From Solwaraspora sp. WMMA2056 (GTDB lineage: Bacteria; Actinomycetota; Actinomycetes; Mycobacteriales; Micromonosporaceae): DNA of 64,000 nucleotides. The position numbers were made by a program, and so were the translations under genes. Shown in pieces: positions 2,937 to 55,396 of this stretch. The notes below the pieces were generated by a model that saw only the letters and a program-made list of their open reading frames with translations, searched no databases and was not told the origin of the DNA. Where the stretch lies: positions 1,364,001-1,428,000 of the forward strand of contig NZ_CP128360.1 of assembly GCF_030345095.1 (NCBI RefSeq), in the 5' to 3' direction. Numbering within the stretch: position 1 is the first letter of the stretch; every line of letters starts with the position of its first letter.

Positions 2937-2964
2937 CAGAGTGTCCAGCCCAGCGGGTACGCTG

Positions 2965-4929
2965 TCAGTCCTCGTCGGACTTGCCGCCCTGCATGCCGGA
3001 GGAGATCAGCTCCATCACGGTGGAGTCCTGCAGGGTCGTGACGTCACCGAGGGAACGGTTCTCGGCGACGTCCCGCAGCAACCGGCGCATGATCTTGCCG
3101 GACCGGGTCTTCGGCAGCTCCGGCACCAGCATGATCTGCCGGGGCTTGGCGATCGGCCCGAGCGTACGGGCGACGTGGTTGCGCAGCTCCTGGATCAACG
3201 CCTCGCCCGCGTCGCCGGCCGTGTCGGCGCTGCCCCGGGGGATCGCGAACGCGACGATCGCCTGACCGGTCGTCGGATCGGTCGCGCCGACCACCGCCGC
3301 CTCCGCCACCGACGGGTGCGACACCAGCGCCGACTCCACTTCGGTGGTCGAGATGTTGTGCCCGGACACCAGCATCACGTCGTCGACCCGGCCGAGCAGC
3401 CAGACGTGCCCGTCGGCGTCCTTCTTGGCCCCGTCACCGGCGAAGTACATCGTGTCGAACCGCGACCAGTAGGTGTCGATGAACCGCTGGTCGTCACCCC
3501 AGATGGTGCGCAACATCGACGGCCACGGCTCGCGCAGCACCAGGTAGCCGCCGCCCCCGTCGGGCACCGACGCACCCTGGTCGTCGACCACGTCGGCGCT
3601 GATCCCCGGCAGCGGGGTCATCGCCGAACCCGGCTTGGTCGCGGTCACGCCGGGCAGCGGCGAGATCATGATCGCCCCGGTCTCGGTCTGCCACCAGGTG
3701 TCCACGATCGGACACCGGCCGGCACCGATGTGCTCCCGGTACCACATCCAGGCCTCCGGGTTGATCGGCTCACCGACGCTGCCGAGCAGCCGCAGCGAAC
3801 CCAGGTCGTACTTGGCGGGGATGTCCTCGCCCCACTTCATCATGGTGCGGATCAGCGTCGGCGCGGTGTACAGGATGCTCACCTTGTACTTCTGCACCAG
3901 CTCCCAGAACCGGCCCTTGTGCGGGGTGTCCGGGGTTCCCTCGTACATCAACTGGGTGGCACCGTTGGACAGCGGCCCGTACACGATGTAGGAATGCCCG
4001 GTGACCCAGCCGATGTCGGCGGTGCACCAGTAGACGTCCGTCTCCGGCTTGAGGTCGAAGACCGCGTGGTGGGTGTACGACGCCTGGGTGAGGTAGCCGC
4101 CGGTGGTGTGCAGGATGCCCTTCGGCTTGGCCGTGGTGCCGCTGGTGTAGAGGATGAACAGCGGGTGCTCGGCGTCGAACGGCTGCGCCTCGTGCGTGCT
4201 GCTCGCCGTCTCGACCGTCTCGTGCCACCAGTGGTCCTTGTCGGTCCAGGCGACATCTTCACCGGTACGCCGTACCACCAGCACGTTCTCCACCGACGGA
4301 CACTGCGCGACCGCCTCGTCGACGGTCGGCTTGAGCGCCGACGGCTTGCCCCGGCGGTAGCCGCCGTCCGCCGTGACGATCACCTTGGCGCTGGCGTCGC
4401 GGACCCGGCCGGAGAGCGCGTCGACGGAGAACCCGCCGAAGACCACGTTGTGGGTGGCGCCGATCCGGGCGCAGGCCAGCATCGCGACCGCGGCCTCCGG
4501 GATCATCGGCAGGTAGATCGCCACCCGGTCGCCGGCGGTGACGCCGAGGTCGGTCAACGCGTTCGCCGCCTGGCAGGTCATCCGGTGCAGTTCGGCGTAG
4601 GTGATGGTGCGGGTGTCACCCGGCTCGCCCTCCCAGTGGATGGCGACCCGGTCACCGGCGCCGGCGGCCACGTGGCGGTCCAGACAGTTGTACGCGACGT
4701 TGAGCTGACCGCCGACGAACCACTTGGCGAACGGCGGGTTGGACCAGTCCAGCACCTGGTCCCACTCCTTGGCCCAGTGCAGCCGGCGGGCCTGGTCCGC
4801 CCAGAAGCCGAGCCGGTCGGCGGCCGCGGTGTCGTAGGCGGCCGCAGTGACGTTGGCCGCCCCGGCCAGTTCGGCCGGCGGCTCGAACCGCCGATTCTCC
4901 TGAAGTAGGTTCTCCAGCGTTTCGCTCAT
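2965..4929 (-). CDS. acs: Acetyl-CoA synthetase (AMP-forming)
   Basis: The 654-residue length is normal for Acs. The enzyme activates acetate with ATP and CoA in the cytoplasm, by way of acetyl-AMP. The adenylate-forming signature YTSGTTAKPKG lies near residues 258-268. The WWQTETG motif and the C-terminal PKTRSGKIMRRLLR are present, and the Lys in SGK is the catalytic residue known in this family to be controlled by reversible acylation. The ATG is preceded by GTGAGGAG about 8 nt upstream. In Mycobacterium acs also sits near the HAD/ssd locus, so this is conserved backbone. Confidence 0.96.
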   Translation of the reverse strand: MSETLENLLQENRRFEPPAELAGAANVTAAAYDTAAADRLGFWADQARRLHWAKEWDQVLDWSNPPFAKWFVGGQLNVAYNCLDRHVAAGAGDRVAIHWEGEPGDTRTITYAELHRMTCQAANALTDLGVTAGDRVAIYLPMIPEAAVAMLACARIGATHNVVFGGFSVDALSGRVRDASAKVIVTADGGYRRGKPSALKPTVDEAVAQCPSVENVLVVRRTGEDVAWTDKDHWWHETVETASSTHEAQPFDAEHPLFILYTSGTTAKPKGILHTTGGYLTQASYTHHAVFDLKPETDVYWCTADIGWVTGHSYIVYGPLSNGATQLMYEGTPDTPHKGRFWELVQKYKVSILYTAPTLIRTMMKWGEDIPAKYDLGSLRLLGSVGEPINPEAWMWYREHIGAGRCPIVDTWWQTETGAIMISPLPGVTATKPGSAMTPLPGISADVVDDQGASVPDGGGGYLVLREPWPSMLRTIWGDDQRFIDTYWSRFDTMYFAGDGAKKDADGHVWLLGRVDDVMLVSGHNISTTEVESALVSHPSVAEAAVVGATDPTTGQAIVAFAIPRGSADTAGDAGEALIQELRNHVARTLGPIAKPRQIMLVPELPKTRSGKIMRRLLRDVAENRSLGDVTTLQDSTVMELISSGMQGGKSDED

Positions 4930-12273: not shown

Positions 12274-13536
12274 TACCCCACCGCGATGCACCGCACCAAC
12301 CCGCCGCTCGTCACCGCCGAGGGGCGACCCCGGGGTGACGTCGCGGGCCAGGTCGATCGTGCGGCGGTGGCGGCCCGGGTGCGGGAGCGGTTCGTCGCGG
12401 ACGGTACGCCGGTGACGCCGGCGTCGGTGGTCAGTGCGGTGCGGGCCGAGCCGGGGGCGGCGTTGCGCGGTGACGCCGGGTTGTTGCGGCTGGCCGACCG
12501 GGTGCACGGGGAGTTGGCCGGCGCTGGGCCGTTGGCGCCGTTGCTGGCCGACGTACGGGTGACCGATGTGCTGGTCAACGGCGTGCAGGTGTGGGTGGAC
12601 CGGGGTGGCGGGCTGGAGCGGGCTGCGGTGGCGTTGCGGTCGGTCGACGAGGTACGGCGGTTGGCGCAGCGGCTGGCGGCTGCGTGTGGGCGTCGGCTCG
12701 ACGACGGTTGCCCGTACGTCGACGCCCGGTTGCCGGACGGGACGCGGTTGCACGCGGTGTTGCCGCCGGTGGCGGCGACGGGGCCGTACCTGTCGTTGCG
12801 GACGTTCCGGCAGCGGCCGTTCCAGTTGGCGGAGCTGGTGGCCAACGGCATGGTCGACGACGGGGTGGCGCAGCTGCTGCGGGCGGTGGTGGCCGGCCGG
12901 TTGGCGTACCTGATCGCGGGCGGGACGGGGTCGGGCAAGACGACCCTGTTGAACACGATGCTCGGGCTGGTGCCGGCCGGTGAGCGGATCGTGATGGTGG
13001 AGGACGCGGCGGAGTTGCGGCCGGAGCATCCGCATGTGGTGACGCTGCAGGCGCGGACGGCCAACGTGGAGGGTGTCGGGTCGGTCGGGCTGGGGGAGCT
13101 GGTCCGGCAGGCGTTGCGGATGCGGCCGGACCGGCTGGTCGTCGGCGAGTGTCGGGGCGCCGAGGTCGTCGATCTGCTGGCCGCGCTCAACACCGGCCAC
13201 GACGGCGGCGCCGGCACCCTGCACGCCAACGCGGCCAGCGACGTACCGGCCCGGCTGGAGGCGTTGGGGCTGCTCGGCGGGCTGCCGCGCGCCGCACTGC
13301 ACGCGCAGATCGCCGCCGCGATCCAGGTCGTCGTCCAGCTGCGCCGGATCGGCGGGCGGCGGGTGGTCGACGCGGTGTGCCTGCTCACTCCGCAGGGCCC
13401 GGACCAGCTGATCACGGTCACCTCGGCCTGGCGGCGCGGTGCGGGCCCGCAACCGGCCGGGCCGGCCCTGGCCCGGTTGCTCACCGAACGCGGCGTACCG
13501 GTGCCGGCGGTGCTCGACGGCGGGGGACCGCGATGA
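12262..13536 (+). CDS. cpaF: TadA/CpaF-family secretion ATPase
   Basis: The 424 residues fit the helicase/secretion-neighbourhood ATPases of actinobacteria. The Walker A motif GGTGSGKTTLLN lies near residues 219-230. The Asp box includes MVEDAAELR, the Walker B region is LRMRPDRLVVGECRGAE, and the His box is NTGHDGGAGTLHAN. The enzyme is predicted to power assembly of Flp-type pili or secretion at the membrane, with TadB/TadC as platform. ATG 12262 has GTAGGAGGG upstream. The next gene starts by ATGA overlap. Its usual neighbour ssd is displaced by the accessory segment. Confidence 0.93.
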   Translation: MPPPYPTAMHRTNPPLVTAEGRPRGDVAGQVDRAAVAARVRERFVADGTPVTPASVVSAVRAEPGAALRGDAGLLRLADRVHGELAGAGPLAPLLADVRVTDVLVNGVQVWVDRGGGLERAAVALRSVDEVRRLAQRLAAACGRRLDDGCPYVDARLPDGTRLHAVLPPVAATGPYLSLRTFRQRPFQLAELVANGMVDDGVAQLLRAVVAGRLAYLIAGGTGSGKTTLLNTMLGLVPAGERIVMVEDAAELRPEHPHVVTLQARTANVEGVGSVGLGELVRQALRMRPDRLVVGECRGAEVVDLLAALNTGHDGGAGTLHANAASDVPARLEALGLLGGLPRAALHAQIAAAIQVVVQLRRIGGRRVVDAVCLLTPQGPDQLITVTSAWRRGAGPQPAGPALARLLTERGVPVPAVLDGGGPR

Positions 13537-38771: not shown

Positions 38772-38844
38772 GCCGCCTTAGCTCAGTCGGCAGAGCGACG
38801 CACTCGTAATGCGTAGGTCGACGGTTCGATTCCGTCAGGCGGCT
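38772..38844 (+). tRNA. tRNA-Thr (anticodon CGT)
   Basis: A 73-nt cloverleaf: acceptor GCCGCCT pairs with AGGCGGC, D-stem GCTC/GAGC, anticodon loop CTCGTAA with CGT at 38805-38807, T-arm GACGGTTCGATTCCGTC, discriminator T. CCA is not encoded. Genomic islands often use such genes, but I found no repeated 3' end nearby. Confidence 0.95.
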
Positions 38845-38852
38845 CGGCAACC

Positions 38853-38897
38853 GGTGCCCCCGTCACCTCGGCGAACAGCCGAGGCGACGGGGGCACC
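38853..38897. terminator. Hairpin terminator after tRNA-Thr
   Basis: A 20-bp stem with one mismatch (38853-38872 and 38878-38897) around loop gaaca, between tRNA-Thr and the convergent response regulator gene. Confidence 0.75.
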
Positions 38898-38923
38898 CTC
38901 GCATCCGATCAAGCTGACCAAGG

Positions 38924-39574
38924 TCAGCGGGCGGCACCGTTGCGGTACGCCCAGATCACGACGTTGAGCCGGTCCCGGACCCCGAGCTTGGCCAGTATTC
39001 GGCCGACGTGGGTCTTGACGGTCACCTCGGCGAGATGGAGTCGCTGGGCGATTTCGGCGTTGCTGGCTCCGGCGAGGATGAGGTTGAAGACGTCGCGTTC
39101 CCGGGTGGTGAAGGTGTCCAGCGGCGCGGGGTCCCGGGGCGGGAGTGGTGGTGTGGTGCGGGCGGCGACCAGGTGGTGGGTGGTGGTCGGGGCGAGGACC
39201 GATCCGCCGTGGTGGACGGTGCGAATGGCGGCGGTGAGGCCCTCGCCGGTGGTGTCCTTCAGCAGGTAGCCGCTGGCACCAGCGGTGAGGATACGAGTGG
39301 CGTAGTCGCCGCTGTCGTATGTGGTGAGGGCGAGGATTTTCGGTGGGGGGTTGGCGCTGGCGAGGATGACGCGGGTGGCGGTGATGCCGTCGAGTTCGGG
39401 CATGCGGATGTCCATCAGAATGATGTGGGGTCGGTGTCGGGCGGCGAGGGCGATGGCTGCGGAACCGGTGGCTGCGGTGGCGACGACCCGCATGTCGGGA
39501 GCGGCGTCGACGACCATGGCGAAACCGGTACGGACGAGGTCCTGGTCGTCGGCGATGAGTACGTCGATCGTCAT
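38924..39574 (-). CDS. NarL/LuxR-type response regulator
   Basis: A 216-residue two-domain regulator. The receiver has IADDQDLVRTG, the phosphoacceptor in IILMDIRMPE, and Lys in GYLLKDT, so it is canonical. The C-terminal LuxR helix-turn-helix is FTTRERDVFNLILAGASNAEIAQ and so on. ATG 39574 overlaps the stop of the histidine kinase gene (ATGA), so the two form one operon. The likely target is the divergent ABC exporter, whose promoter region holds a GATACC palindrome. Confidence 0.93.
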   Translation of the reverse strand: MTIDVLIADDQDLVRTGFAMVVDAAPDMRVVATAATGSAAIALAARHRPHIILMDIRMPELDGITATRVILASANPPPKILALTTYDSGDYATRILTAGASGYLLKDTTGEGLTAAIRTVHHGGSVLAPTTTHHLVAARTTPPLPPRDPAPLDTFTTRERDVFNLILAGASNAEIAQRLHLAEVTVKTHVGRILAKLGVRDRLNVVIWAYRNGAAR

Positions 39575-40698
39575 ACCCGTGCTCCTTGGGCGGTCAGTGG
39601 CCAGGTCGTGGTGACGGTGAGGTCCTCGCCGGTGCTGATGGTGCAGGTGCCGTTGAAGAGCGCACACCGGTGGCGGATGCCGGTCAGGCCCCGGCCTGGG
39701 ATGGGTGGTTCGTTGTGGCTGGGCGACAGAGGGCTGCGCACCGTGACGGTGAGCAGGGTGGGTGTCCACTGCATGGCCAGGTGGGCGCGGCGTTCGTGGG
39801 TATGTTTCAGGACGTTGGTCAGGGACTCCTGGATCACCCGGTAGACGGCGAGGTCCATGCCTGCTGCCAAGGGCTGATCCTCCCCGCTGGACTGGGCGGT
39901 CAGGTCGAGGCCAGCGTCGATGAACCCGCCGAGGAGCTCCGGGAGCCGGCCGAGTCCTTCGCCTTGCCAGTCCTGGTTGCCGTCCTCGACGACGGTCAGC
40001 AGCCGTTTCACGTCGGTGAGGGCCTGCCGGCCGAGGTGCGCGATCCGGTCGAGAACGGGGCCGACGGCTCCGCTGTCGACCCTGGCGGTGGCGCGGCCAC
40101 CTTCGGCCTGGGCGATGATGGAGGCGAGGGAGTGCGCGATGATGTCGTGCATCTCCTGGCTGATTCGGATGCGTTCCTCCTGGGCGGCCAGTTGAGCCCG
40201 GATAGCGCTGTCCTGCTCGGCCAACCTCCGGCGGTGCTCGGCGTCGGCAACAGCGATCCGTTGCTGACGTTGCATCAGGCCGGTCGACCAGGCAGCCAGT
40301 ACGGTCGCCATGATCAGCACGGCGGGCAGGGCGGCACCGAGCCGCCGGTCATGCAGCGCTTGGGCGACGACCAGTATCGCGCTGGCGGCACCCGGCAGCA
40401 GTCCCGCGTGCCGCCAATGTCTGGGGGCGTAGGCTGCGGTGGCGTGCACGGCAACGAGGCTGACGAGGTCGCCGGGGAACATGAAACTCCGGGAGACGGC
40501 CAGGTGCGCGGCTGAGATGGCGGCGACTACCGCGAGAAACAGCAGCGGTGCGCTGCGGCGGATCAGCAGGGGCACGGCGATCATCGCCGACCAGTACCAC
40601 TCGGAAAGCCCGGCCAAGCCGAGCAGCAGGCAACAGATGACGGCTGCGGTGGCGATCGCGACATCGAGGGCGGGCACCGGTCTGCGTCGTAACCCCAC
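39571..40698 (-). CDS. Sensor histidine kinase (NarL-partner type)
   Basis: A 375-residue kinase. About five hydrophobic segments fill residues 10-135, followed by a coiled segment and the HisKA_3 box ISQEMHDIIAHSLASII with the phosphorylated His. The ATPase domain is short: the N-box lies in RVIQESLTNVLKHTH, and the G region is RGLTGIRHR. The compact membrane sensor resembles antibiotic or envelope-stress sensors. Start GTG 40698 has TAGCCT 6 nt upstream, so the transcript is probably leaderless. Confidence 0.92.
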   Translation of the reverse strand: MGLRRRPVPALDVAIATAAVICCLLLGLAGLSEWYWSAMIAVPLLIRRSAPLLFLAVVAAISAAHLAVSRSFMFPGDLVSLVAVHATAAYAPRHWRHAGLLPGAASAILVVAQALHDRRLGAALPAVLIMATVLAAWSTGLMQRQQRIAVADAEHRRRLAEQDSAIRAQLAAQEERIRISQEMHDIIAHSLASIIAQAEGGRATARVDSGAVGPVLDRIAHLGRQALTDVKRLLTVVEDGNQDWQGEGLGRLPELLGGFIDAGLDLTAQSSGEDQPLAAGMDLAVYRVIQESLTNVLKHTHERRAHLAMQWTPTLLTVTVRSPLSPSHNEPPIPGRGLTGIRHRCALFNGTCTISTGEDLTVTTTWPLTAQGARV

Positions 40699-40704
40699 AC
40701 GTCC

Positions 40705-40710
40705 AGGCTA
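40705..40710 (-). promoter_or_regulatory. -10 element of the histidine kinase operon
   Basis: TAGCCT on the minus strand, 6 nt before GTG 40698. Confidence 0.45.
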
Positions 40711-40762
40711 GGCAACGCCTGTCGTTCACGGAAACCTGCCGCAAAGATCGATACCTGCGCCT

Positions 40763-40776
40763 GATACCAAGGTATC
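40763..40776. promoter_or_regulatory. GATACC palindrome between kinase and ABC exporter
   Basis: GATACC-aa-GGTATC, with a further GATACC half-site at 40750-40755. It lies between the divergent operons and is a candidate site for the response regulator. Confidence 0.5.
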
Positions 40777-40831
40777 GGCTTTTTCCGGCAGACGGATTCC
40801 TTGGTGGGATGTGTCGGGATGCGCTGATTCC

Positions 40832-40837
40832 TACCGT
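40832..40837 (+). promoter_or_regulatory. -10 element of a leaderless transcript
   Basis: TACCGT, 7 nt before GTG 40845. Confidence 0.5.
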
Positions 40838-40844
40838 GGGTACG

Positions 40845-41588
40845 GTGACGACGCATACGACATTTGCCGAGATGGTGAGCTGCCGCGAGGTCCGGAAGAC
40901 CTACGGCACCGGTGCGGCAGCGGTGGTCGCGGTGGACGGCGTATCTGCGGATTTCCTGGCTGGGGAGTTCACCGCGATCATGGGCCCGTCCGGATCGGGC
41001 AAAACCACGTTGATGCACCTGATGGCCGGTCTGGACACCCCGACCCAGGGCACAGTGAGCCTGGCGGGAACGTCGCTGGCCGGCTTGAACGACCGCGCGT
41101 TGACTGACCTGCGCCGAGACCGGGTCGGCTTCATCTTCCAGGCGTTCAACCTGCTGCCGACGCTGACCGCCGAGCAGAACATCGTGCTGCCGTTGCGGCT
41201 GGCCGGGCGGCGTCCCGACCCGGACGAACTGCGCCGGGTCACAGGGGCGCTGCAGATCGGCGACCGGCTGGCACACCGGCCGGCCGAGCTATCCGGCGGC
41301 CAGCAGCAGCGGGTCGCGGTGGCCAGGGCGCTGCTGACCAGGCCCTCGGTTATCTTCGCCGACGAACCGACCGGCGCCCTGGACATCGCCACCGGGCGGG
41401 CCCTGCTGGGAACCCTGCGGGAGGCGGCCCGCCGGGAGGGACAGACGATCATCATGGTGACTCACGATCCGGGCGCGGCCACCTACGCCGACCGGGTCCT
41501 GGTAATGGCGGACGGTCGGATCCACGCCGAACTACGCAGCCCGACCCGGGAACAGATCCTGGTGGCGATGGCAGCGGTGGCGGTGTGA
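40845..41588 (+). CDS. ABC transporter ATP-binding protein (MacB/LolD type)
   Basis: A 247-residue ATPase. Walker A is [19 protein letters not shown], the signature is [16 protein letters not shown], Walker B is [12 protein letters not shown], and the His switch lies in MVTHD. It is the MacB/FtsE-like group that couples to FtsX-type permeases to move peptides or lipids out of the membrane. Its stop overlaps the start of the permease gene. GTG 40845 is supported by the -10 box. It is placed divergent from the two-component system. Confidence 0.95.
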
Positions 41589-44017
41589 CCATGATCTTCG
41601 CGTTTGCCTGGTCGCAGCTGCGGTCGTACCCGGCCCGCCTGCTCGCCATCGTCATGGCGGTGACCCTGGCTACCGGCTTCCTGACGGCGACCGCGACCTT
41701 CGCAGCGACCTCCAGCGAGGGACTACGCCGTACCGCCGCCGCACCCTTGACCACCGCCGACATAGTCTTGGAGGCCGACGACACGGTCAAGGACCCGGAG
41801 TGGTACCAGGCTGCAGCCTCCGTACCGGGGGTGCGCTCGGCCGACCCGCAGCACGCCCGTACGGTCACCGTCTTTGGTGGCTCCCGTCGCGGCGACGCCA
41901 ACGTGCAGAGCATCGCTGCTACCGAACGGGTGCGCTGGTTCGCCTTGGACGGGGGGCAGTGGCCTAGCCGTTCCAACCAGGTGGTGGCCGACCAGCGGAC
42001 CCTCGACGACCTCGGCGTGGAGGTCGGTGCCACCCTGACGTTCCGACAGGGCGACCTGGCACCGGTTCCGGTGACCGTGACCGGCGCGGCCGATCTGGGT
42101 TTCCAGCCGCTGACCGGTTCATCCTTCCGGTTTTACGCCCCGGCGTCGTTCTTCTCCGGGGACGTGCCGCCTGCCGCGCTGCTGACCGTCGCCGACCGGG
42201 CGCAGTTGGCCGCCACCCTCGACGCGCTCCGCGAAAGACTGGGCGACGGAATCACCGTCTCCGAGGCCTCGGTCGTCGCCGACCAGGCGGCTGCCCGCTT
42301 CGCCGGCGGCAACGGACAACTCGTCGTACTGATGCTGGCGTTCGCGGCGGTGGCGCTGCTGGCCGCCATGCTGGTCGTGGCCAACACCTTCCACGTGGTG
42401 ATCGTCGCGCGGGTTCGGCAGATCGCGCTGCTGCGCCTGGTCGGCGGCCACCGGTCGCAGGCCAGGCGCATGGTACTGGCGGAGGCTGCGATCGTCGGTG
42501 GGATCGGCGGTCTGGCTGGTGCCGCTGTCGGGGTGGGTCTCGGCTACCTCGGCGCGACTACCCTGGACATCGCTGGTGGCGGCCTACGGGTCTCACCGAC
42601 CGCCCTGGCCGGTTGCGTTGCCGTCGGAATGGTGGCCACGGTGGTGGCTGCCTGGACACCAGCCCGGCGGGCCACCCGGATCCCTCCCGTCCGGGCCCTG
42701 CAGACAGCTGAAGAGCCACCGGCCGGATCGGTCCGGATCGGTCGTCGTCTGGTCGTCGGCAGCATCATCACCGCCATCGGTGCGGTGGCGCTGGTCGTGG
42801 CCGCCGTCGGTGCCGCACTACCCCTGGCCCTGGTGGGCGGGCTGCTTCTGGCGACCGGCCTCCTGACGGGCCTGCCCTCACTGATCGGCCTGCTGCTGGC
42901 TCCGGTGGCCCGACTACTCGAACGCTTCGGGGTTGCCGCTGGTCTGGCCGGCACCAGTCTTAGCCAGAACGCCCGCCGCACTGCCTCGGCCGCGATGGTC
43001 GTGGTGGTCGGCGCCGCCCTGATCAGCAGCCTGGCGGTGGCCGCCACCACCGGACGTGCCACCGTGGCCGCGGACCTGGAGGCTCGGTACCCGATCGCGG
43101 CCAGCCTCCGCACCGACGGCTCGGCGATCAGCATCGACACAGTTGAGGCTCTGGCCCGGGTACCGCAGGTCACGACCACCGCGACGGTCGGCACCATCAC
43201 CGCACGCTTCCCCGACGGTGGCAGGGCCACACCCCGGCTGCTCGCGGCCACACCCGAGAACCTCGCTCCCCAGGCCCGGCCAGAAGGGACCGTCCTGCTC
43301 CCCGCCACCTACCTCACCGCCCTCGGACTGGCCGAGGGTGAGCCCATCACCGTGGCGGTGGGCGAGCGGGAACTCCGGTTGACCGCCCACGCCTCCCGGC
43401 TGGCCGACACCACGGGACAACTCCTCGGTGTGGTCAACCCGGCGACCCTGGCCGCGCATCAGATCACGACGACCCCGACCGCAGTGTGGGCAGCGGCGGC
43501 GGTGGGCTTCGACCGGGACGCCCTGACCGCCGACGTCAACGCGGTGGCTGCGCGCGACCCCAGAGTCCAGGTCGGCGGCGGCGTCACCGAGGGCGGCGAC
43601 ATCGCCAACGTCCTGTCCATCCTGCTCGGTCTCTCCCTGGCGATGTTGCTGGTGACCGTCGTGATCGCCCTGCTGGGCATCGCGAACCTGCTCGGCCTGT
43701 CGGTCATCGAACGGGCCCGGGAGATGGCGCTGCTGCGGGCTCTCGGCACCCGCCGGGGGCGACTGAGGTCGATGCTCACGGCTGAGGCCGTCACCATCAC
43801 CACCCTGGGCACCCTCATCGGAATCCTGATCGGGGTTCCCGTGGGCCTGGCCGGGGTCGCCGCAGCGGTGGGGCGCACCGCTGAGCCGGTGATCCGGCTG
43901 CCCTGGGGGCAACTCGTCCTAGTCCTCGTAGTTGCCATCCTGACCGGGGTGCTGGCGAGTGTGGCGCCGGCCCGCCGAGCGGCCAGGGTGGCACCCGCCG
44001 AGGGGCTGACTCGGTAG
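41585..44017 (+). CDS. FtsX-type ABC transporter permease
   Basis: An 810-residue permease with two FtsX cores. There is a first membrane helix (residues about 15-38), a large extracellular domain, three helices near 240-365, four more hydrophobic stretches between about 390 and 500, a second extracellular domain, then the last three helices near 680-800 ending in ARRAARVAPAEGLTR. The layout fits exporters for antimicrobial-peptide defence. With the adjacent lantibiotic cluster, a role in self-protection is plausible but not shown. GTG 41585 overlaps the ATPase stop; ATG 41591 also fits. Confidence 0.9.
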   Translation: MTMIFAFAWSQLRSYPARLLAIVMAVTLATGFLTATATFAATSSEGLRRTAAAPLTTADIVLEADDTVKDPEWYQAAASVPGVRSADPQHARTVTVFGGSRRGDANVQSIAATERVRWFALDGGQWPSRSNQVVADQRTLDDLGVEVGATLTFRQGDLAPVPVTVTGAADLGFQPLTGSSFRFYAPASFFSGDVPPAALLTVADRAQLAATLDALRERLGDGITVSEASVVADQAAARFAGGNGQLVVLMLAFAAVALLAAMLVVANTFHVVIVARVRQIALLRLVGGHRSQARRMVLAEAAIVGGIGGLAGAAVGVGLGYLGATTLDIAGGGLRVSPTALAGCVAVGMVATVVAAWTPARRATRIPPVRALQTAEEPPAGSVRIGRRLVVGSIITAIGAVALVVAAVGAALPLALVGGLLLATGLLTGLPSLIGLLLAPVARLLERFGVAAGLAGTSLSQNARRTASAAMVVVVGAALISSLAVAATTGRATVAADLEARYPIAASLRTDGSAISIDTVEALARVPQVTTTATVGTITARFPDGGRATPRLLAATPENLAPQARPEGTVLLPATYLTALGLAEGEPITVAVGERELRLTAHASRLADTTGQLLGVVNPATLAAHQITTTPTAVWAAAAVGFDRDALTADVNAVAARDPRVQVGGGVTEGGDIANVLSILLGLSLAMLLVTVVIALLGIANLLGLSVIERAREMALLRALGTRRGRLRSMLTAEAVTITTLGTLIGILIGVPVGLAGVAAAVGRTAEPVIRLPWGQLVLVLVVAILTGVLASVAPARRAARVAPAEGLTR

Positions 44018-44055
44018 CAAAATGTGCAACTTCGCATGCTGAAAGTGAACTTATA

Positions 44056-44084
44056 TTGACTTGATCAAATATGTCTATTACCGT
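44056..44084 (+). promoter_or_regulatory. Promoter of the lantibiotic-cluster regulator gene
   Basis: TTGACT (44056-44061), 17-bp spacer, TACCGT (44079-44084), within an AT-rich stretch that contrasts with the surrounding GC-rich DNA. Confidence 0.65.
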
Positions 44085-44129
44085 CCTTGCTGTCAGGTTG
44101 TTCAGACTCGGCTTGGCGGGGGACGGTTC

Positions 44130-44792
44130 GTGACGGATGTGCTGGTGGTAGGCGACGAGACCCTGATCAGTGTCGGAATCAAGATGATTCTGGAGAGCGG
44201 CGGAGGACTCGATGTCGCCACCACTGAGTGGAAGGACGCCCGATCCGCTGTCGAGCAGCGCCGGCCGGCCGTGGTGCTGCTCGCCGGCTTGCGGGAACAA
44301 ATCACTGTGCTCGACCAACTGCAGGCTCTGGGTGGAGTATCCGCCATCGCCGTCCTGACCACTCGGGCTGTGCCGGACCTTGTGCTCGATGCGTTACGAG
44401 GTGGGGCGTGCGGCTTTCTGCTGCGCGACACTCAACCTGAGCAGCTTGTCGCGGCAGTGCGGGCGCTTGCCCGGGGTAGCGTCGTGCTGGCGCCCGAGGC
44501 ATCCTCGGTGGTGATGCATGCGGCCATCCGGCCTGAGGTCGTTCCCACTTACGGTTCACGAGCGGTCGAGCGGCTCAAACAGCTTTCTGACCGAGACCAG
44601 AGCATCCTGCGGTTACTCACTGCAGGACTCACCAACTCCGAGATTAGCAAACAAGTCTTTCTCAGCACGGCGACCGTGAAGGAGCACGTCAGCCTCATAC
44701 TCGCAAAGTTGCACGTGAGAAACCGCGTACAGGCTGCGGTCCTGGCTTGCTCCGCTGGCCTTTGTGTCGACGAGGATGGCCGTCGCTGCTGA
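44130..44792 (+). CDS. LuxR-type regulator with Asp-less receiver (GarR-like)
   Basis: A 220-residue protein with the fold of a NarL response regulator. The receiver starts VLVVGDETLISVG. At the phosphoacceptor position it reads VVLLAGLRE, with Ala52 in place of Asp, and the conserved Lys is Arg (FLLRDT). Phosphorylation at the normal site is therefore not possible. The C-terminal helix-turn-helix is intact (SDRDQSILRLLTAGLTNSEIS, then VKEHVSLILAKL). It is the likely pathway regulator of the adjacent lantibiotic genes, perhaps acting without a kinase or sensing a ligand. GTG 44130 follows GGGGGACGG. Confidence 0.88.
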   Translation: MTDVLVVGDETLISVGIKMILESGGGLDVATTEWKDARSAVEQRRPAVVLLAGLREQITVLDQLQALGGVSAIAVLTTRAVPDLVLDALRGGACGFLLRDTQPEQLVAAVRALARGSVVLAPEASSVVMHAAIRPEVVPTYGSRAVERLKQLSDRDQSILRLLTAGLTNSEISKQVFLSTATVKEHVSLILAKLHVRNRVQAAVLACSAGLCVDEDGRRC

Positions 44793-45045
44793 ACGACCCT
44801 GGATCTTGTAGAGAACTTCCCCGCTTGGAAGGATCGAGAGATGGCGGGAACGAAGCAGTAACCGCAGGCGTTGCAGGATCCGGCGGTGCGTCGACTGATG
44901 CTGTGGTCTGCGCATGCATTCCGCCATATAAATATCGGATTACCCAAATGCGAATTACATCCTCTGTGCTCAAATCCAGCTCCGCGAGGTGGTTGGCGCC
45001 GGCAGCCGAGGTTTGCAGAACACTGCGGTTCACTGCCTGTTCTGA

Positions 45046-46068
45046 TTATTCCACTGACAGTCGAAATTCCTCCGCAAGCAGCTCGTATGAGCGCTGCCGC
45101 GCCCCAAGGCCGGGGCAGTTCGTCGTCAGCATCACCTCATGGACGTCGTAGAGGGTCTGCAGCCTGCGGATCTCCTTCCCCACCACGGCGGGTGTGCCTG
45201 CGATCTGCAGGTACGGGCGGGATTCGCGCAGTCTGCGATCCTCGTCCGTGAGCTGGTAACGGCGGGCATCATCGAGATTCGGCGCGCCCCCTCGGTACTC
45301 GTCGGTGCGCTGAACTTGCGCCCTCCACCCCGTGGTGCACGACATCCAGAAGCAGGCCGCCAACTCCTCGGCCTCAGCATCCGAATCAGCGCATAGCACC
45401 CGTAGAGCCAACATCGCCTGTGGCTGTTCCAGCCACGCCGAGGGGCGGAATTTTTCCCGGTACACCGCGAGGGCCTCCGGGCATTCGGCGGGGGCGATGA
45501 ACTGGGCGAGGCAGAAGGGTAGCCCGAGCATCCCAGCCATCTGGGCGCTGGATTTTCCAGAGCCGAGCATCCACGGTATCGGCGGCGTTGGTATCTCGGG
45601 CGTCACAGACACCCTGGTGATCGTCCGGCCATCGCCAAGGAATCCGAGCAATCCTCCGATCTGCTGTAGAAAAGCCTCGTCAGTGCGGATCGCGTAGGGA
45701 TTGAGTAGTTCCGCGAAGGCGGGCGGACCGCCGAGTCCACGCCCGAAACCGAGATCGATGCGTCCCGGGTGCAGAGCCGTGAGAACACGGAACGTTTCGG
45801 CCACCTTGAGGGGACTGTAATGAGGTAACAGCACGCCGCCGCTGCCAACCCGAATCCGGCTGGTGACTGCAGCCGCCGCAGCCGCGACCACCTCGGGCGC
45901 GGCGCACGCATGTGCCGCACTGCCGTGGTGTTCGGCAATCCAGTACCGGTGGTAGCCGTGCGACTCGACGCTGTGGGCCAACGTGACGCAGTCGCGGACC
46001 GCCTCAGCCGGGCTGCCGTCACGGAACACCGGAACCTGATCCAACACGCTGAGCACGATGTCTCCCAA
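45046..46068 (-). CDS. garO: LLM-family flavin monooxygenase of the lantibiotic cluster (GarO-like)
   Basis: A protein of about 340 residues of the bacterial luciferase-like family: LSVLDQVPVFRDG at the start, GYHRYWIAEHHG, and VGSGGVLLPHYSPLKVAE. In the actagardine cluster of Actinoplanes the luciferase-like GarO oxidises a thioether to the sulfoxide. Here the cluster has the same set of genes, so the same reaction is predicted. LLM proteins in other lanthipeptide clusters can instead reduce dehydroalanine, so this needs the product. I chose TTG 46068 because GAGGAGG precedes it. GTG 46092 lies further up without a site. It is the last gene of the operon. Confidence 0.85.
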   Translation of the reverse strand: MGDIVLSVLDQVPVFRDGSPAEAVRDCVTLAHSVESHGYHRYWIAEHHGSAAHACAAPEVVAAAAAAVTSRIRVGSGGVLLPHYSPLKVAETFRVLTALHPGRIDLGFGRGLGGPPAFAELLNPYAIRTDEAFLQQIGGLLGFLGDGRTITRVSVTPEIPTPPIPWMLGSGKSSAQMAGMLGLPFCLAQFIAPAECPEALAVYREKFRPSAWLEQPQAMLALRVLCADSDAEAEELAACFWMSCTTGWRAQVQRTDEYRGGAPNLDDARRYQLTDEDRRLRESRPYLQIAGTPAVVGKEIRRLQTLYDVHEVMLTTNCPGLGARQRSYELLAEEFRLSVE

Positions 46069-46103
46069 GGCTTCCTCCTCACGAGTGTTCACTCGATGAA
46101 CGC

Positions 46104-47828
46104 TCAGATCAGCAGCTGCCGACCCGCGAACTCCCGGTAGAGCTCGTTGTTGGTGAGCAGGTCATCGTGTTGTCCGACGGCTGTGGCGCGGCCCTCGTCG
46201 ATAACCACGATCCGGTCGGCGCGTACCACGGTGGCCAGCCGATGCGCGACGATCAGGACGGTGCGTCCGGCGGCGAGCGTTCCGAGACTGTCCTGCAGTA
46301 GCTGCTCGTTGCGGGCGTCCAGATGTGCGGTCGGTTCGTCGAAGAGCAGAACTGGCGACTTGGCGAGCAGCGCCCGGGCGACCGCCAACCGCTGCCGCTC
46401 CCCGCCGGAAAGCATGCCCCCACCCTCGCCGACCGGAGCTTGCAGGCCAGCTGGGTGCCGCGCGATCAGCAGGTCCAGGTTCACCGCTCGGGCAACTGCA
46501 TCGATCTCGAGATCGGATGCTTCCTGAGCCGCAAGGGTGAGGTTGTCCCGGACGGAGCCGGCCAGCACCGGCGCCTCCTGCTCCACGTATCCGAGAAGGG
46601 CGCGTAACTCGTCCAAGGGGTACTCGCGGATGTCACGACCGTACAACCGGATCTCTCCCTTGGAGACCTCGTACAGGCGAGCGATCAATGCCAGGATGGT
46701 GGACTTGCCAGCTCCGGACGGTCCCACCAGGGCGGTGGTACTGCCTTCAGGAATCTGGAAGCTGACGTTACGCAGCACCACGTCGCCGTGATAGCCGAAT
46801 GACACGTCATCGAACTCGATGGCGGGTACGGGGTGCCAGGTGGGGGAGATGGTCGACGACCGTGCCGGCATGACCTGTTTCTCGTCCGGCAAGGTGAGAA
46901 TCTCCTGGATTCGGCTCAATGCGCCCCGCCCGCTCTGTATCGTGGTCACGGCGTCGGCGACTTGGGCTAGCGGCAGTGCGAGGACGAACAGGAACAACAG
47001 GAACGCCACCAAGTCCCCAAGTTGCATGGCACCCTGTGCAACCCGCAGACCGCCGAATCCGATCACGGCGACGAACGCACCCTGCAGGGCAAGCCGCACG
47101 ATCGGGCCGATGTACGCGGAGACCTGCGCGAGCCGGACGCCTGCGCGTCGAGCCTGGTCGGCGCACTCGACCACTTTGGCGGTCTCAGAATCGGTGGCGC
47201 CTGCGATGCGGATCGTACGGACGGCACCGAGGGCGCGAGCCAACGCGGCGATCAGCCCCCCGACCGTCTCTTGGACGGTCCCACTCACGGCCGCCAGTCT
47301 CCGGCTGAGGAAGCGGACGCCCACCGCCCCCAGCAGCACCGGCAACAGGCTGACGCCGAGTAGTAGGGGGTCGATGATCGCCATTGCTATCAATGCTCCG
47401 GACACCAGGAGCAGTCCGCTGACCATATCGACCACACCGGAGGCGAACATCGAGCGGAGCAGCGGCGTGTCCGAGCCGACCCTGGCGATCAGGTCGCCGG
47501 ACTCGCGCCCATCGTAAACACTGACCGGCAGCCGTAGCAGGTGCACGACGAGGGCGCGTCGCGCGGCGAACACCACCGCCTCCCCGGTGCACTGCAAAAG
47601 GAACTGCTGTGCGGCACCCACACCCGCTCCAGCGACCATCACGGCCAGCACCAACGTCGCAGCCGTCCCATAGGGCTCGCCCGACTCAAGAGCGGTCAGT
47701 ACTCGACGTATGAGCAACGGTTGGCAGAGCTGTCCCGCGACCCCGACGAGCGCGAGCACCCCAGCTGCGATCAGCTTGCCCCGATGCGCGGACAGGCTAC
47801 GCCGCAGCACGCTCGAACGACTCAGCAC
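46104..47828 (-). CDS. garT: ABC exporter of the lantibiotic cluster (GarT-like)
   Basis: A 574-residue half-transporter with a six-helix membrane domain followed by an ATPase domain: GPSGAGKSTILALIARLY, LSGGERQRLAVARALL, VLLFDEPTAHLD. Unlike many type II LanT proteins it has no N-terminal C39 peptidase domain, so it exports but cannot cut the leader. It is expected to export the lantibiotic or protect the producer. GTG 47828 overlaps the end of lanM, which places it in the same operon. Confidence 0.9.
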   Translation of the reverse strand: MLSRSSVLRRSLSAHRGKLIAAGVLALVGVAGQLCQPLLIRRVLTALESGEPYGTAATLVLAVMVAGAGVGAAQQFLLQCTGEAVVFAARRALVVHLLRLPVSVYDGRESGDLIARVGSDTPLLRSMFASGVVDMVSGLLLVSGALIAMAIIDPLLLGVSLLPVLLGAVGVRFLSRRLAAVSGTVQETVGGLIAALARALGAVRTIRIAGATDSETAKVVECADQARRAGVRLAQVSAYIGPIVRLALQGAFVAVIGFGGLRVAQGAMQLGDLVAFLLFLFVLALPLAQVADAVTTIQSGRGALSRIQEILTLPDEKQVMPARSSTISPTWHPVPAIEFDDVSFGYHGDVVLRNVSFQIPEGSTTALVGPSGAGKSTILALIARLYEVSKGEIRLYGRDIREYPLDELRALLGYVEQEAPVLAGSVRDNLTLAAQEASDLEIDAVARAVNLDLLIARHPAGLQAPVGEGGGMLSGGERQRLAVARALLAKSPVLLFDEPTAHLDARNEQLLQDSLGTLAAGRTVLIVAHRLATVVRADRIVVIDEGRATAVGQHDDLLTNNELYREFAGRQLLI

Positions 47829-50800
47829 GTGCGTGGGCTGTCGGGCGTTTCCAGCCAGGCGATCGCAGGAACTTCGGCCGGGTACGCAAGTCGCAGCAGG
47901 CCCAGGCAAATGCCGGCGGCGCCCAACATCAGGCCCGGCATGTAGATGTCTCCGACCAGACCGCAACGCATTCCGTTCGTGGCGATGTCACCGACCACCG
48001 ATGCGGTCAGTCGTTCGTACCTGCCCGGTGCCGGTAGGACCCGCTCTGCGAGATCGAACAGCGACAAGGCACCGAAGTCACCGTGGCAGACGCTGTGATT
48101 CAGACCGAAACCCTTGGCAGCCACCAGGCTCAGGGCTGCGTCGGCCTCCGCGATCAACCCGCTGTCACCCTGACGGTGGTCTCGGAGGATGAGAAGCCGA
48201 GACAGCCCGATGCCGGCACCACCGTGGCACCACAGGGCAGGGTAGGAGCCAGTACCCGCCATCTCCGGGCGCAGGTCGCGCCAGGCGCCATCGGCAGGCA
48301 CGTACAGGGCGCGATCGAAATCGACCGCCCGGCTCGCCAGCTCGTGCAGCGACTGATCGTCAAACTCTGCGGCGAGCCGGTACAGCGGCCATGCGATACC
48401 GGCCGCGCCGTGTGAGAAGCCCCCCAGCAGCGGACCATCTGGGGTGGCTGGCCAGCCGGCTGCGCCGTTCACGTCGACCACGTTCGCCGCCAAGCGTTCA
48501 GCGCACACTGCCGCCACGTCCCGTACGCCGGGCATCTGATGTCGCCGGTGTAGATCCAGAGCGACCACTGCGCACCCGGCCAGTCCGGCGATGAGGTCGG
48601 GACACTCCTCGCGCGTGGCGCACTCGCGCCACCACGGGACCGCTTCGGAGATCGCCTCCCAGTATACCGGCTCGCCCGTCGCGTGTGCAACGTGGTCCAG
48701 GGCGTAGAGCAAGCCGGCGGTACCGCTGTAGGCACCGACCGTCTCGACGATACGATGCTCGGCGAGGTACCGCAGGTAGCCCACTACAGGGCGGGCGGCA
48801 CGGTGCGCGATCTCCAGGTACCGGTCGTCACCGAACACTCGGGCCGCATATGCGTACATCACCGCGAGCCCCGCGATACCGTCGTACAGTCCAGTCGCCA
48901 ACGGCTTGTAGCTGTAGGTTTCCTGCGTGATGCCCTCGATGCTGACGCCGATCCAGGATACGTCGTCGGTGCCGAGGATCGCCTCGTCCGCCAGCCGCCG
49001 CGCGATCCGGTTGGCGAGCACAGCGGGATCCGTCTCATGTCCACCAGGGCGGGCGACGGGCTGGCCGACGACCGGCCGCGGCCGCGGCAGGGTGCCCATC
49101 GAGTCCTCGATTATCCGGACCTGGGCAGCGCGGTGCGCCGGTCCGAACTCGGCCAGCCGCCCGGTCAACACCGAGATGGCTGAGGCACCGAAGTACCCCG
49201 GATGCAGCAGACGGGCTCCAGTGCGGATTTCGCGGCTCCCCGCGATGCTCTGGAAGCAGGGGATGTCACCGGCGAGCAGTTGACGTCGCTCGGATTCGAT
49301 GATCGGGACAAGTTCCGGACGGGCGTCGGCGGCGGCCCACAGCTTGTCAAGCAGCCTGTCCCGGTCGTTGGCATCGCGCAGATAATCCGGGTGGAAGCTC
49401 TCCGTCAGGAAGAGGCTGTACCGCCGGGTCGGACGAGCCAGATGGCGTACCTCGACGTCCCGGAACCCGTGTAGCAGCCGGTCGAAGTCGGAGCGGTGCG
49501 CAACCATCAGGTCGTACGCCTCGGTGAAGCCGGCGACCACCTCGGAGGTATGCGTCCAGGGCTGCACCTCCCCGCCGGTGACAACTGGACGGTTCAATGC
49601 GCCGGCCATGACTGCCTCGACTGCTTCGATGCGGGCAACGTCGGTGTAGGCGTCCACCACGCGGGGAATCGGGCGCGGAGCGGCCTGCGGTTCCCCGCCT
49701 CCGATGGCGCTGACGTCGACACTGTGGCGTTGCCGGCCACCGAAAGCGCGGGCCGGAAGGATACCGACCGCCAGCACACTACGGTTGAGCACGTCCAGCG
49801 CGCGCCCGTACGCATCTTCGGCCGAGCGGCCGAGTTCACCGCACTGCAGTACGGTCTCCAGGTCAATGGGCGTGAACGACGAACCGGCAGCGATCACGTT
49901 CTCCATGTGCATGTCCACGCCGCCGAGCAGCAGCATCACCGCCAGCACGGAACCTGCTCGCCGGTAGAAGTCGGATAGTTCGTCGGCGTCGACGCAGGGC
50001 GCGTGCCGGACGAACTCACACCAGCCATGCCCGCCGCAGTCGAGCACCCGTGGAGCGGTCACCGGCACACTCAGTCCTTGCCGGTCCAGAGCGGCGACTG
50101 TCTCGGCGTACGCCTTCTCGGCTGCTACCGACCGCGGCTTGTAGATCAGATCGGTGCCGTCGGAGAAGGTCACCTGCGCCACTGACCGTCCACCATGGTG
50201 TGGATCTCCAAGGTCAAGCCGGAAGGCGCTCACGACGGTCGCTGACGGGGGTAACAGTCCAACGCGCCGCAGTTGATGCTCATCCCCGGCTAAGCGCTCG
50301 AACAGTTCTGCTGTGTAGTCGACCCAACGCCGGCCGGCTTCGATGAGACACCGACCGAGCACGGGATACTCGCCGAACAACGCACGAAGGTAATCTGGGT
50401 CGGTGAGCAGCCGCCTGTCGTAGTCGTCGTACCTCTCCTGCGGGGTGTCGCCCATGAGCTTGCCGTGCAAGCGAGCGACGTTGAGTTCCAACAGCATGGT
50501 TCGGGTTGCGATCGACAGTAACCGGTTGGCGAGTGCCTCAAGCAGTGAATTGCGTAAGCCGGCGATGGACGTTCGCTCCGCTAGGCGCTCCCGTAGTCGC
50601 GCCTCGTAGAAAGCGAGAAACGGATGAATCAGGCCGCTGAAAAGTAGCCGGTCGAACCCTTGGGACCACAATCTGGTGGGCAGTTTGAGAAAGGCTACCT
50701 CGCTGGCGTCCGTGTCGAGCACCACTGCGAGTTCGTTCGCCCAGTCGAGCAGATGGTCGGGTGGGTCGAAATCCTCCCCCGAGATCATTTTCCCAAATGC

Positions 50801-50989
50801 AGCACGACTTATCGCCAACTCGCGTAACCGGATGTCGAGAATGCGGTCATCGAGGAAGGCGGAATCTCGCCACGAACAAACAAGATCATCGTGTCCCGGT
50901 GTCGGCTGGTCGTTCGTCGATGCCGGACGTTCGTGCAGGTAGGCACTTCGTCGAATATTGAAGGGATCAAGTGCAAGGGCCGGTGACAT
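47822..50989 (-). CDS. garM: Type II lanthipeptide synthetase LanM (GarM-like)
   Basis: A 1055-residue bifunctional enzyme. The N-terminal dehydratase half has LIYKPRSVAAEKAYAE, HMENVIAAG and PIDLETVLQ, the kinase-like residues that phosphorylate Ser/Thr before elimination. The C-terminal LanC half carries the zinc ligands in WCHGGAGIGL (about residue 918) and NHSVCHGD (about 967), which activate Cys for thioether rings. It modifies the precursor encoded 69 bp upstream. ATG 50989 has GCAGGAG upstream. A hairpin lies in the gap to the precursor gene. Confidence 0.96.
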   Translation of the reverse strand: MSPALALDPFNIRRSAYLHERPASTNDQPTPGHDDLVCSWRDSAFLDDRILDIRLRELAISRAAFGKMISGEDFDPPDHLLDWANELAVVLDTDASEVAFLKLPTRLWSQGFDRLLFSGLIHPFLAFYEARLRERLAERTSIAGLRNSLLEALANRLLSIATRTMLLELNVARLHGKLMGDTPQERYDDYDRRLLTDPDYLRALFGEYPVLGRCLIEAGRRWVDYTAELFERLAGDEHQLRRVGLLPPSATVVSAFRLDLGDPHHGGRSVAQVTFSDGTDLIYKPRSVAAEKAYAETVAALDRQGLSVPVTAPRVLDCGGHGWCEFVRHAPCVDADELSDFYRRAGSVLAVMLLLGGVDMHMENVIAAGSSFTPIDLETVLQCGELGRSAEDAYGRALDVLNRSVLAVGILPARAFGGRQRHSVDVSAIGGGEPQAAPRPIPRVVDAYTDVARIEAVEAVMAGALNRPVVTGGEVQPWTHTSEVVAGFTEAYDLMVAHRSDFDRLLHGFRDVEVRHLARPTRRYSLFLTESFHPDYLRDANDRDRLLDKLWAAADARPELVPIIESERRQLLAGDIPCFQSIAGSREIRTGARLLHPGYFGASAISVLTGRLAEFGPAHRAAQVRIIEDSMGTLPRPRPVVGQPVARPGGHETDPAVLANRIARRLADEAILGTDDVSWIGVSIEGITQETYSYKPLATGLYDGIAGLAVMYAYAARVFGDDRYLEIAHRAARPVVGYLRYLAEHRIVETVGAYSGTAGLLYALDHVAHATGEPVYWEAISEAVPWWRECATREECPDLIAGLAGCAVVALDLHRRHQMPGVRDVAAVCAERLAANVVDVNGAAGWPATPDGPLLGGFSHGAAGIAWPLYRLAAEFDDQSLHELASRAVDFDRALYVPADGAWRDLRPEMAGTGSYPALWCHGGAGIGLSRLLILRDHRQGDSGLIAEADAALSLVAAKGFGLNHSVCHGDFGALSLFDLAERVLPAPGRYERLTASVVGDIATNGMRCGLVGDIYMPGLMLGAAGICLGLLRLAYPAEVPAIAWLETPDSPRTC

Positions 50990-51012
50990 TGCTGCTCCTG
51001 CGGGGAAGGGGA

Positions 51013-51045
51013 GGCCCGGGAGGGTGCGCTGCACGCTCCCGGGCC
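51013..51045 (-). terminator. Hairpin between lanA and lanM (attenuator candidate)
   Basis: 10-bp arms GGCCCGGGAG (51013-51022) and CTCCCGGGCC (51036-51045) continue, after one mismatch, into GTGC/GCAC around a GCT loop. It lies 14 bp past the precursor gene stop. Partial termination here would give more precursor than synthetase mRNA. Confidence 0.6.
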
Positions 51046-51058
51046 CGATGGCCGGTCC

Positions 51059-51253
51059 TCAGCAGGCGCAGATCAGCGTGCCGCACTCGATGGTCAGGGT
51101 GCAGACCCAGCCGCTGCTGGCGGCGTAGACGGTCCGATCCTCGCGGAGGTCCTCGAACGTCAGTTCGCCGAAGCCGCTGCCTGCCGGGTCGACGGTGTCC
51201 CCGTCCCGCAGATCAGCGTTCTTCCAGGCCTTTTCGATGGCAAGAGTGGACAT
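51059..51253 (-). CDS. garA: Actagardine-type lantibiotic precursor peptide (LanA)
   Basis: A 64-residue precursor. Residues 1-45 form a leader with the conserved [14 protein letters not shown] region, ending in Ala-Ala. The predicted core is residues 46-64, [19 protein letters not shown]. Actagardine is, from memory, the same except Val at core position 15, and deoxyactagardine B has Leu15-Val16. Ring formation by analogy: Ser1-Cys6 lanthionine and methyllanthionines Thr7-Cys12, Thr9-Cys17, Thr14-Cys19. The last of these is the usual site of sulfoxidation. ATG 51253 follows GGAAGGAAGGAAA. Peptides of this group block cell wall synthesis by binding lipid II. Confidence 0.95.
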
Positions 51254-51459
51254 CTATTTCCTTCCTTCCTGTGAATCACCGGGCGATCGCCCAGGATCGA
51301 CCAAATGCAGCCACGGCGCCATGGCCGCAATTCCGTCCAACCTGAATTGGTAACCCGTCGTCAATTGAAACGACGCCGATCGACGATTCGCTACCCGCCA
51401 TGTGGGGGGTGGGTGGAGATGATCGGAGATGAAGAAACATCCAGCCGACGGTTGACCGA

Positions 51460-51476
51460 ATCTTGAATCTCAAGAT
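51460..51476. promoter_or_regulatory. 17-bp palindrome upstream of the precursor gene
   Basis: ATCTTGA-atc-TCAAGAT, about 207 bp upstream of the precursor start. A candidate binding site for the cluster regulator, though far from the start. Confidence 0.35.
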
Positions 51477-51717
51477 AGAAGGTGTCGGTAGCGCGTGGAA
51501 ACTGGCTCCGGCAAACGTTCTCTGATTGATCTTGGTGGCGGTTCGCGCGGATCGCGTGGGCTGGTCGGAGCGCGTTCGTGGGGAGGGCCGAGGTTCGCGC
51601 GGCCATACATCTGTCGCTTGCTCGCCTTGGTGCGGTTGGTGGCGAACCAGCGCGGTGAACCCGCAGGCGGGGCCAACGACAGTGTCGAAGAGCGGCGGGG
51701 GCGCCAGCGAGATCAAC

Positions 51718-51742
51718 GTCGCCAGGTGCTGCACCTGGCGAC
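51718..51742. repeat. Perfect 25-bp palindrome downstream of yaaA
   Basis: GTCGCCAGGTGC, one central T, GCACCTGGCGAC. It lies 24 bp past the yaaA stop, so it may be a terminator, but the 1-nt centre disfavours a stable hairpin loop; a protein-binding site is possible. Confidence 0.5.

Positions 51743-52566: not shown

Positions 52567-55396
<2,830 letters not shown>

Follow-up and report, generated by a model that had tools for sequence, protein, structure and literature searches.

The 64,000-nucleotide stretch of Solwaraspora sp. WMMA2056 analysed here (contig NZ_CP128360.1, positions 1,364,001 to 1,428,000; hereafter the window) very probably carries a complete actagardine-type class II lanthipeptide cluster of the Micromonosporaceae, with Leu15-actagardine as its product, an immunity module of its own and a place on an island next to a transfer RNA (tRNA) gene. 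An initial annotation, made from the letters of the DNA, had proposed an actagardine-type lantibiotic cluster at 44130-51253, with a LanM synthetase, an exporter, a luciferase-like monooxygenase and a regulator. The type of the cluster is confirmed by the precursor core, by the invariance of its ring residues among relatives and by LanM, and the gene set is borne out by family scans; LanM, the ATP-binding cassette (ABC) exporter, the monooxygenase and the LuxR-type regulator are all open frames. The limits were too short on the left, where a likely immunity transporter and a two-component system extend the cluster to 38924. Judged by its core, the cluster encodes a further natural peptide of the actagardine group, changed conservatively at a single position and combining two known residue choices. 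More is gained from the extent of the cluster, which takes in a probable immunity module and a probable operator, and from its location on a tRNA island.

The precursor, LanA, fell below the cut-off of every curated family (for the plantaricin C family it scored 22.1 bits, with 29 required), and a Pfam scan gave no match. It is therefore identified by its likeness to other precursors. Thirteen related loci came from a pattern scan of 84,980 species genomes, from which the window's own and very near genomes were possibly left out. Twelve of the 14 precursors (window plus 13 loci) were aligned; those of Salinispora cortesiana and Actinoplanes liguriensis, which have the same 64 residues as the precursors of Salinispora mooreana and Actinoplanes cyaneus, respectively, were left out, and several other stretches in the alignment lack a few leader or C-terminal residues. 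Eighteen columns are invariant across the 12 precursors, including all four Cys, Ser1, the three scaffold Thr and Glu11. This invariance of the ring residues argues that the actagardine-type core is not due to chance. The core follows the actagardine-type (mersacidin group) pattern of Ser1, Cys6-Thr7-x-Thr9-x-Glu11-Cys12, Thr14, Cys17 and Cys19, and the leader is related to that of a known producer, the precursor being 75% identical over 64 residues to that of A. liguriensis. The core has a single match in the whole 7.01-Mb genome, lanA itself, and the precursor has no match among 72,556 plasmid records. Comparison with solved structures gave nothing meaningful (one portal protein, E 0.16), the library minimum of 20 residues exceeding the length of the 19-residue peptide. 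The leader RNA of lanA folds somewhat better than shuffled sequences (z -2.28).

The window precursor has Leu15 and Ile16. Actagardine has Val15/Ile16 and deoxyactagardine B, described as lacking the sulfoxide, has Leu15/Val16 in the account of a review (PMC10676316), which agrees with the earlier description of the peptide as a hybrid of the two; the expected mass, that of actagardine plus 14, is likewise upheld by the masses computed below. The check for an identical core among relatives found none in the 13 related loci and none in the five other precursor-bearing genomes of the family, in which the precursor was found in 6 of 354 genomes including the window's own. The claim of novelty was nevertheless overstated, as residues 15/16 vary in the 13 loci (VV in three, LV in two, LI in two, FI in four, II in one and RV in one) and a published actagardine saturation library, as cited in PMC10676316, may already contain the Leu15 variant. 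Both LI loci belong to Microbacterium and carry Leu5 and a C-terminal Arg; the five other precursors of the family are VV or LV. A search of open PubMed Central for the core string returned no paper, and actagardine's own string returned none either, which makes this search unable to tell a published Leu15 core from an unpublished one. The core DNA of the window differs from that of A. cyaneus at one base of 57, in codon 16 (ATC in the window, GTC in A. cyaneus), although the whole precursors are only 75% identical. Taken together, the aligned sequences present positions 15 and 16 as a variable corner on a fixed scaffold. When the 12-precursor alignment was searched over 394 genomes of the class, a subset of the larger group, it gave two matches, in the window's genome and in a genome of another family. 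A Propionicimonas metagenome-assembled genome (L020) has, in a frame from 15360 of its reverse complement, another lanthipeptide-like precursor, whose end reads YICTISWECTNPPTVCGF, and a second LanM match (1463-4156) stands beside the actagardine-like one; these paired precursors and LanMs are perhaps a two-peptide system.

LanM matched TIGR03897 (lanti_2_LanM) over its full length with a score of 794.9 bits (cut-off 304) and is the only protein in the whole genome above that cut-off. It has both the dehydratase and the cyclase part of a class II synthetase. Compared by eye, the motifs YKPR, DMHMEN (DxHxxN), PIDLET, WCHG and VCHG correspond to the types of residue that PMC4550811 names for CylM, suggesting that LanM has the residues expected for dehydration and for a zinc site. 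LanM would dehydrate Ser1, Thr7, Thr9 and Thr14. It would then form the bridges Ser1-Cys6, Thr7-Cys12, Thr9-Cys17 and Thr14-Cys19, which is the pairing of actagardine. With four bridges the computed monoisotopic mass is 1886.819 Da for the deoxy form and 1902.814 Da with one sulfoxide ([M+2H]2+ 952.414). Actagardine sulfoxide comes to 1888.798 Da, lower by 14.016, and Ala(0) forms would be heavier by one Ala residue (71.037). The identical calculation for actagardine gives an average mass of 1890.24, against 1890 Da in the review (PMC10676316), and M 1889 with [M+H]+ 1890 is given for actagardine in PMC4539421.

The exporter is 64-66% identical to its counterparts in four of the five Micromonosporaceae relatives; in A. 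cyaneus (L011) only about 100 bases (13390-13487) lie between LanM and the monooxygenase, and the exporter gene is absent there. No C39 peptidase domain was matched in the exporter in the family scan, so the leader would be cut by something else. Removal would take place after Ala-Ala, or one residue earlier to give the Ala(0) form, through a protease that was not found among the cluster genes; initial cleavage ahead of the final Ala, with trimming afterwards, would be compatible with the residues VYA-A. Ala(0)-actagardine does occur naturally (PMC10676316). Two related loci show disturbed frames. LanM of S. mooreana (L008) lies in two frames around 12838, of which the first was aligned, and that of S. 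cortesiana in one, the difference being either a real frameshift or a sequencing error. A. liguriensis NRRL B-16723 (L009) has the deoxyactagardine B core (Leu15/Val16), a monooxygenase fragment, and LanM and exporter frames that are broken, probably by errors of a draft sequence. We take this to be the type strain reported for Ala(0)-actagardine, which would not fit its Leu15/Val16 core. Protein alignments were made without A. liguriensis, whose LanM and exporter are in several frames on a draft contig that ends inside the monooxygenase.

To the left of the biosynthetic genes, an ABC ATPase, an FtsX-type permease, a sensor kinase and a response regulator stand in the same order and orientation in all four Micromonosporaceae relatives with enough contig (S. 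mooreana, S. cortesiana, A. cyaneus and Micromonospora sp. C31; the contig of the fifth, A. liguriensis, ends before reaching them). The permease is 67-70% identical in all four at the matching place, whereas in each of the six other genomes of the genus the match with the best score reaches 31-34% identity, and short pieces reach up to 42%. This suggests that the permease accompanies the lantibiotic genes when they move, and that it is not tied to the host. BceAB of Bacillus subtilis, also an ABC transporter, gives resistance to actagardine (PMC7038271), which makes an immunity role for the FtsX-type transporter likely by analogy. Between the kinase and the ABC genes, the palindrome GATACC-AA-GGTATC is present in the same intergenic gap in five of five clusters, with one mismatch in the two Salinispora, and has no second exact copy in the 7.0-Mb genome. 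We predict from this conservation that it is the binding site through which the response regulator controls the immunity transporter.

The whole cluster lies on a genomic island. In the nearest congener (G002) the flanks match the window at 93.6-97.2% identity, with about 0.7 kb of different sequence in place of 38846-51741. On its left the island starts exactly at the 3' end of tRNA-Thr(CGT). Its G+C content is 0.668, against 0.737 and 0.717 in the adjoining DNA. The same tRNA gene is found at the matching place in all seven genomes of the genus, the window's included. A second copy of its 3' end occurs in two of them, comprising the last 34 bases about 13 kb downstream in G003 and the last 40 bases about 31 kb downstream in G006, which suggests that the site is an integration hotspot; among the best 40 candidates per genome, no such copy lies near the site in G001, G002, G004 or G005. 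The precursor is present in one of the seven members of the genus, so that acquisition in the window's lineage is a likelier account than loss in the others. The stretches bounded by the tRNA-end copies are islands in their own right, of about 13 kb in G003 (L044 343-13410) and about 31 kb in G006 (C1:6021604-6052757). Two marks of a tRNA-associated island, abutment on the tRNA 3' end and absence from a close relative, are thus present here, and two others, a repeat on the far side and an integrase, were not found: the tRNA end has no second copy in the window, no integration repeats were found at the right edge, and no tyrosine integrase (PF00589) was found in the window's island or in those of G003 and G006, other integrase types lying outside the search. 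An inverted repeat at 51718-51742 was considered as the island end and rejected, as it lies beyond the 3' end of yaaA and is more likely the yaaA terminator. Just to the right of the island, the open frame at 53036-55396 on the forward strand carries GH10, ricin-type lectin and GH62 domains, and its product is perhaps a xylanase/arabinofuranosidase fusion.

Several observations, in this paragraph and the two that follow, weigh against a complete and working cluster on an acquired island. No protease turned up among the nine cluster genes scanned. The empty site is seen from both sides in G002 only, and yaaA, the right-hand neighbour, has matches in three of the seven genomes of the genus and none in the other four. 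A terminator scan gave eight sites against 4.4 expected, one of them on the palindrome between the kinase and the ABC genes, which can be read as a hairpin. The T run behind that palindrome is missing in the four relatives, and we therefore prefer to read it as an operator.

The luciferase-like monooxygenase bears on whether the product is oxidised. Enzymes of the GarO type reportedly act in sulfoxidation in the gar cluster, and the cluster contains a candidate of this type: its monooxygenase scored 332.7 bits against the MsnO8 family (TIGR03558; cut-off 166.95) and is 72-76% identical to its relatives. The best-scoring solved relative, 4us5, does not decide the chemistry. In the table of related loci, which gives at most two matches per gene and locus, the monooxygenase is present in five of 13 loci, all five in Micromonosporaceae, and was not found within the 18-20 kb compared per locus in the other eight, the michiganin-like ones included. 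Michiganin A is described as lacking the sulfoxide (PMC10676316), and this distribution suggests that the monooxygenase is likely to be the S-oxidase. A product restricted to deoxy-Leu15-actagardine, through an enzyme that is inactive on the core or unexpressed, seems to us unlikely. It would be in keeping with deoxyactagardine B, which the review presents without a sulfoxide, as the genome of A. liguriensis, the species of that compound, has at least a partial monooxygenase (155 residues up to the contig end, 74% identical) together with the same core; presence of the gene alone is thus no proof of oxidation. Yet the sequenced A. liguriensis strain may not be the deoxyactagardine B strain, the monooxygenase follows the actagardine clade, and the window's copy is full length, its body aligning free of gaps with those of the two Salinispora, Micromonospora sp. 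C31 and A. cyaneus. The enzyme could also be thought to reduce dehydro residues to D-Ala, as is presumed for the luciferase-like monooxygenase of the birimositide cluster (PMC10676316). This is highly improbable here, since the one lanthionine and three methyl-lanthionines counted for actagardine in the same review would consume every dehydrated residue and leave none to reduce, the only spare hydroxyl residue in the core being the second Ser. We therefore favour S-oxidation, and predict from the genes that the product is Leu15-actagardine, sulfoxidised if the monooxygenase acts.

The LuxR-type regulator retains a DNA-binding domain (GerE, 62.8 bits), but its receiver lacks the usual phospho-acceptor Asp, which is replaced by Ala-Gly in the window only and is kept in all four aligned relatives. 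A gap of three residues soon after this position is likewise confined to the window. Expression in the window may differ for this reason. A cluster that is silent or decaying in its host, with a degenerate regulator and unexpressed genes, would account for the altered active site; we nonetheless hold it to be improbable, because the genes are open, the DNA-binding domain still scores well, and the second regulator, that of the two-component system, keeps its Asp. In addition, three of the four relatives already have Arg in place of the receiver Lys, suggesting that phosphorylation may not matter in this regulator family. The receiver sequence thus leaves two readings, in which the LuxR-type regulator may work without phosphorylation or the cluster may be poorly expressed. 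Upstream of lanA, ATGGCGCCGTGG of a near-palindrome is invariant in six of six aligned upstream regions, as is CGGGTAG, a possible promoter element. With two mismatches allowed, the near-palindrome pattern has as many matches in the window as in shuffled sequences, so it is conservation that supports this element. A scan for sigma-70-like promoters found two sites against 1.3 expected.

Collectively, these results suggest the following course of events. After modification by LanM, the peptide would be secreted by the ABC exporter, and the monooxygenase would probably oxidise one thioether to the sulfoxide. The peptide would act on Gram-positive bacteria as its relatives do, binding lipid II and blocking the synthesis of the cell wall. 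The two-component system would sense the peptide or the damage it causes, and the response regulator, acting through GATACC-WW-GGTATC, would raise the level of the protective FtsX-type ABC transporter in the producer. The whole set may have moved as one island beside tRNA-Thr(CGT). A more far-reaching version is somewhat less probable than its negation and is offered tentatively: that a self-contained cassette, with an orphan regulator free of phosphorylation and a peptide-sensing two-component system on an operator unique in the genome, entered as a unit at the tRNA-Thr hotspot and makes an undescribed Leu15/Ile16 sulfoxide. The comparison of clusters yields a testable prediction of producer self-protection, which comprises one ABC pair, one two-component system and one conserved operator. 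Natural congeners of this kind also help to map the free positions of the scaffold, given that compounds derived semisynthetically from deoxyactagardine B have entered clinical testing (PMC10676316).

Table 1. Features of the actagardine-type cluster and its island, in window coordinates
Feature	Coordinates	Strand	Remarks
tRNA-Thr (anticodon CGT)	38772-38845	+	left island edge; ARAGORN
Genomic island with whole cluster	38846 to about 51741		absent from nearest congener (G002)
Response regulator, NarL type	38924-39574	-	Response_reg + GerE; start inferred; receiver Asp present
Sensor histidine kinase	39571-40698	-	DUF7134, HisKA_3
Palindrome GATACC-AA-GGTATC, predicted operator	40763-40776		between kinase and ABC genes
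ABC transporter ATPase, likely self-immunity	40809-41588	+	ABC_tran; 77-82% identity to relatives, same place
FtsX-type ABC permease, likely self-immunity	41585-44017	+	810 aa, two FtsX stretches
LuxR-type regulator	44130-44792	+	GerE + weak Response_reg
Luciferase-like monooxygenase, GarO-type candidate S-oxidase	45046-46056	-	TIGR03558; start inferred from relatives
ABC exporter	46104-47828	-	ABC_membrane + ABC_tran; start inferred
Class II lanthipeptide synthetase LanM	47822-50989	-	TIGR03897; DUF4135 + LANC_like; start inferred
Precursor LanA	51059-51253	-	64 aa; leader 51119-51253, core 51062-51118 (19 residues)
Near-palindrome CCATGGCGCCGTGG, possible regulatory element	51311-51324	-	upstream of lanA
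CGGGTAG, possible promoter element	51391-51397	-	upstream of lanA

Comparison with known systems places the probable immunity region near, and outside, the Bce modules, in which a BceRS-like kinase works with an OmpR-type regulator. The region at 38924-44017 shares with BceAB/BceRS the ABC ATPase and the FtsX-type permease. In contrast, its kinase is of the HisKA_3/DUF7134 type and its regulator of the GerE type, not OmpR; an assignment to the Bce modules was dropped on this ground, and the two are likened in function only. The michiganin-type loci of Clavibacter, Microbacterium, Rathayibacter, Sinomonas and Actinomyces share the CTLTIECGT motif with the window, and two from Microbacterium also share Leu15/Ile16. 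They differ in having another leader, a changed residue 5, a C-terminal Arg and a LanM about 31-34% identical, and no monooxygenase was found in them. The loci of S. mooreana, S. cortesiana, Micromonospora sp. C31 and A. cyaneus are much closer, with the same gene order (save for the exporter missing from A. cyaneus) and 64-82% identity for LanM, exporter, monooxygenase, ABC ATPase and permease; their cores have Val15/Val16 with a C-terminal Gln or Arg, or Leu15/Val16.

The gar cluster of Actinoplanes garbadinensis presumably contains a LanM, an exporter, a monooxygenase and a regulator, as named in the initial annotation, and the same holds here; gar DNA did not turn up in the genome scans made, and the likeness to the gar cluster is one of gene set and not gene by gene. 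The core shares 18 of 19 residues with actagardine, which has Val15 where the window has Leu15. It also shares 18 of 19 with deoxyactagardine B of Actinoplanes liguriae, in which Leu15 is the same and Val16 replaces the Ile16 found here, and from which the product of the window would differ further in its expected sulfoxide.

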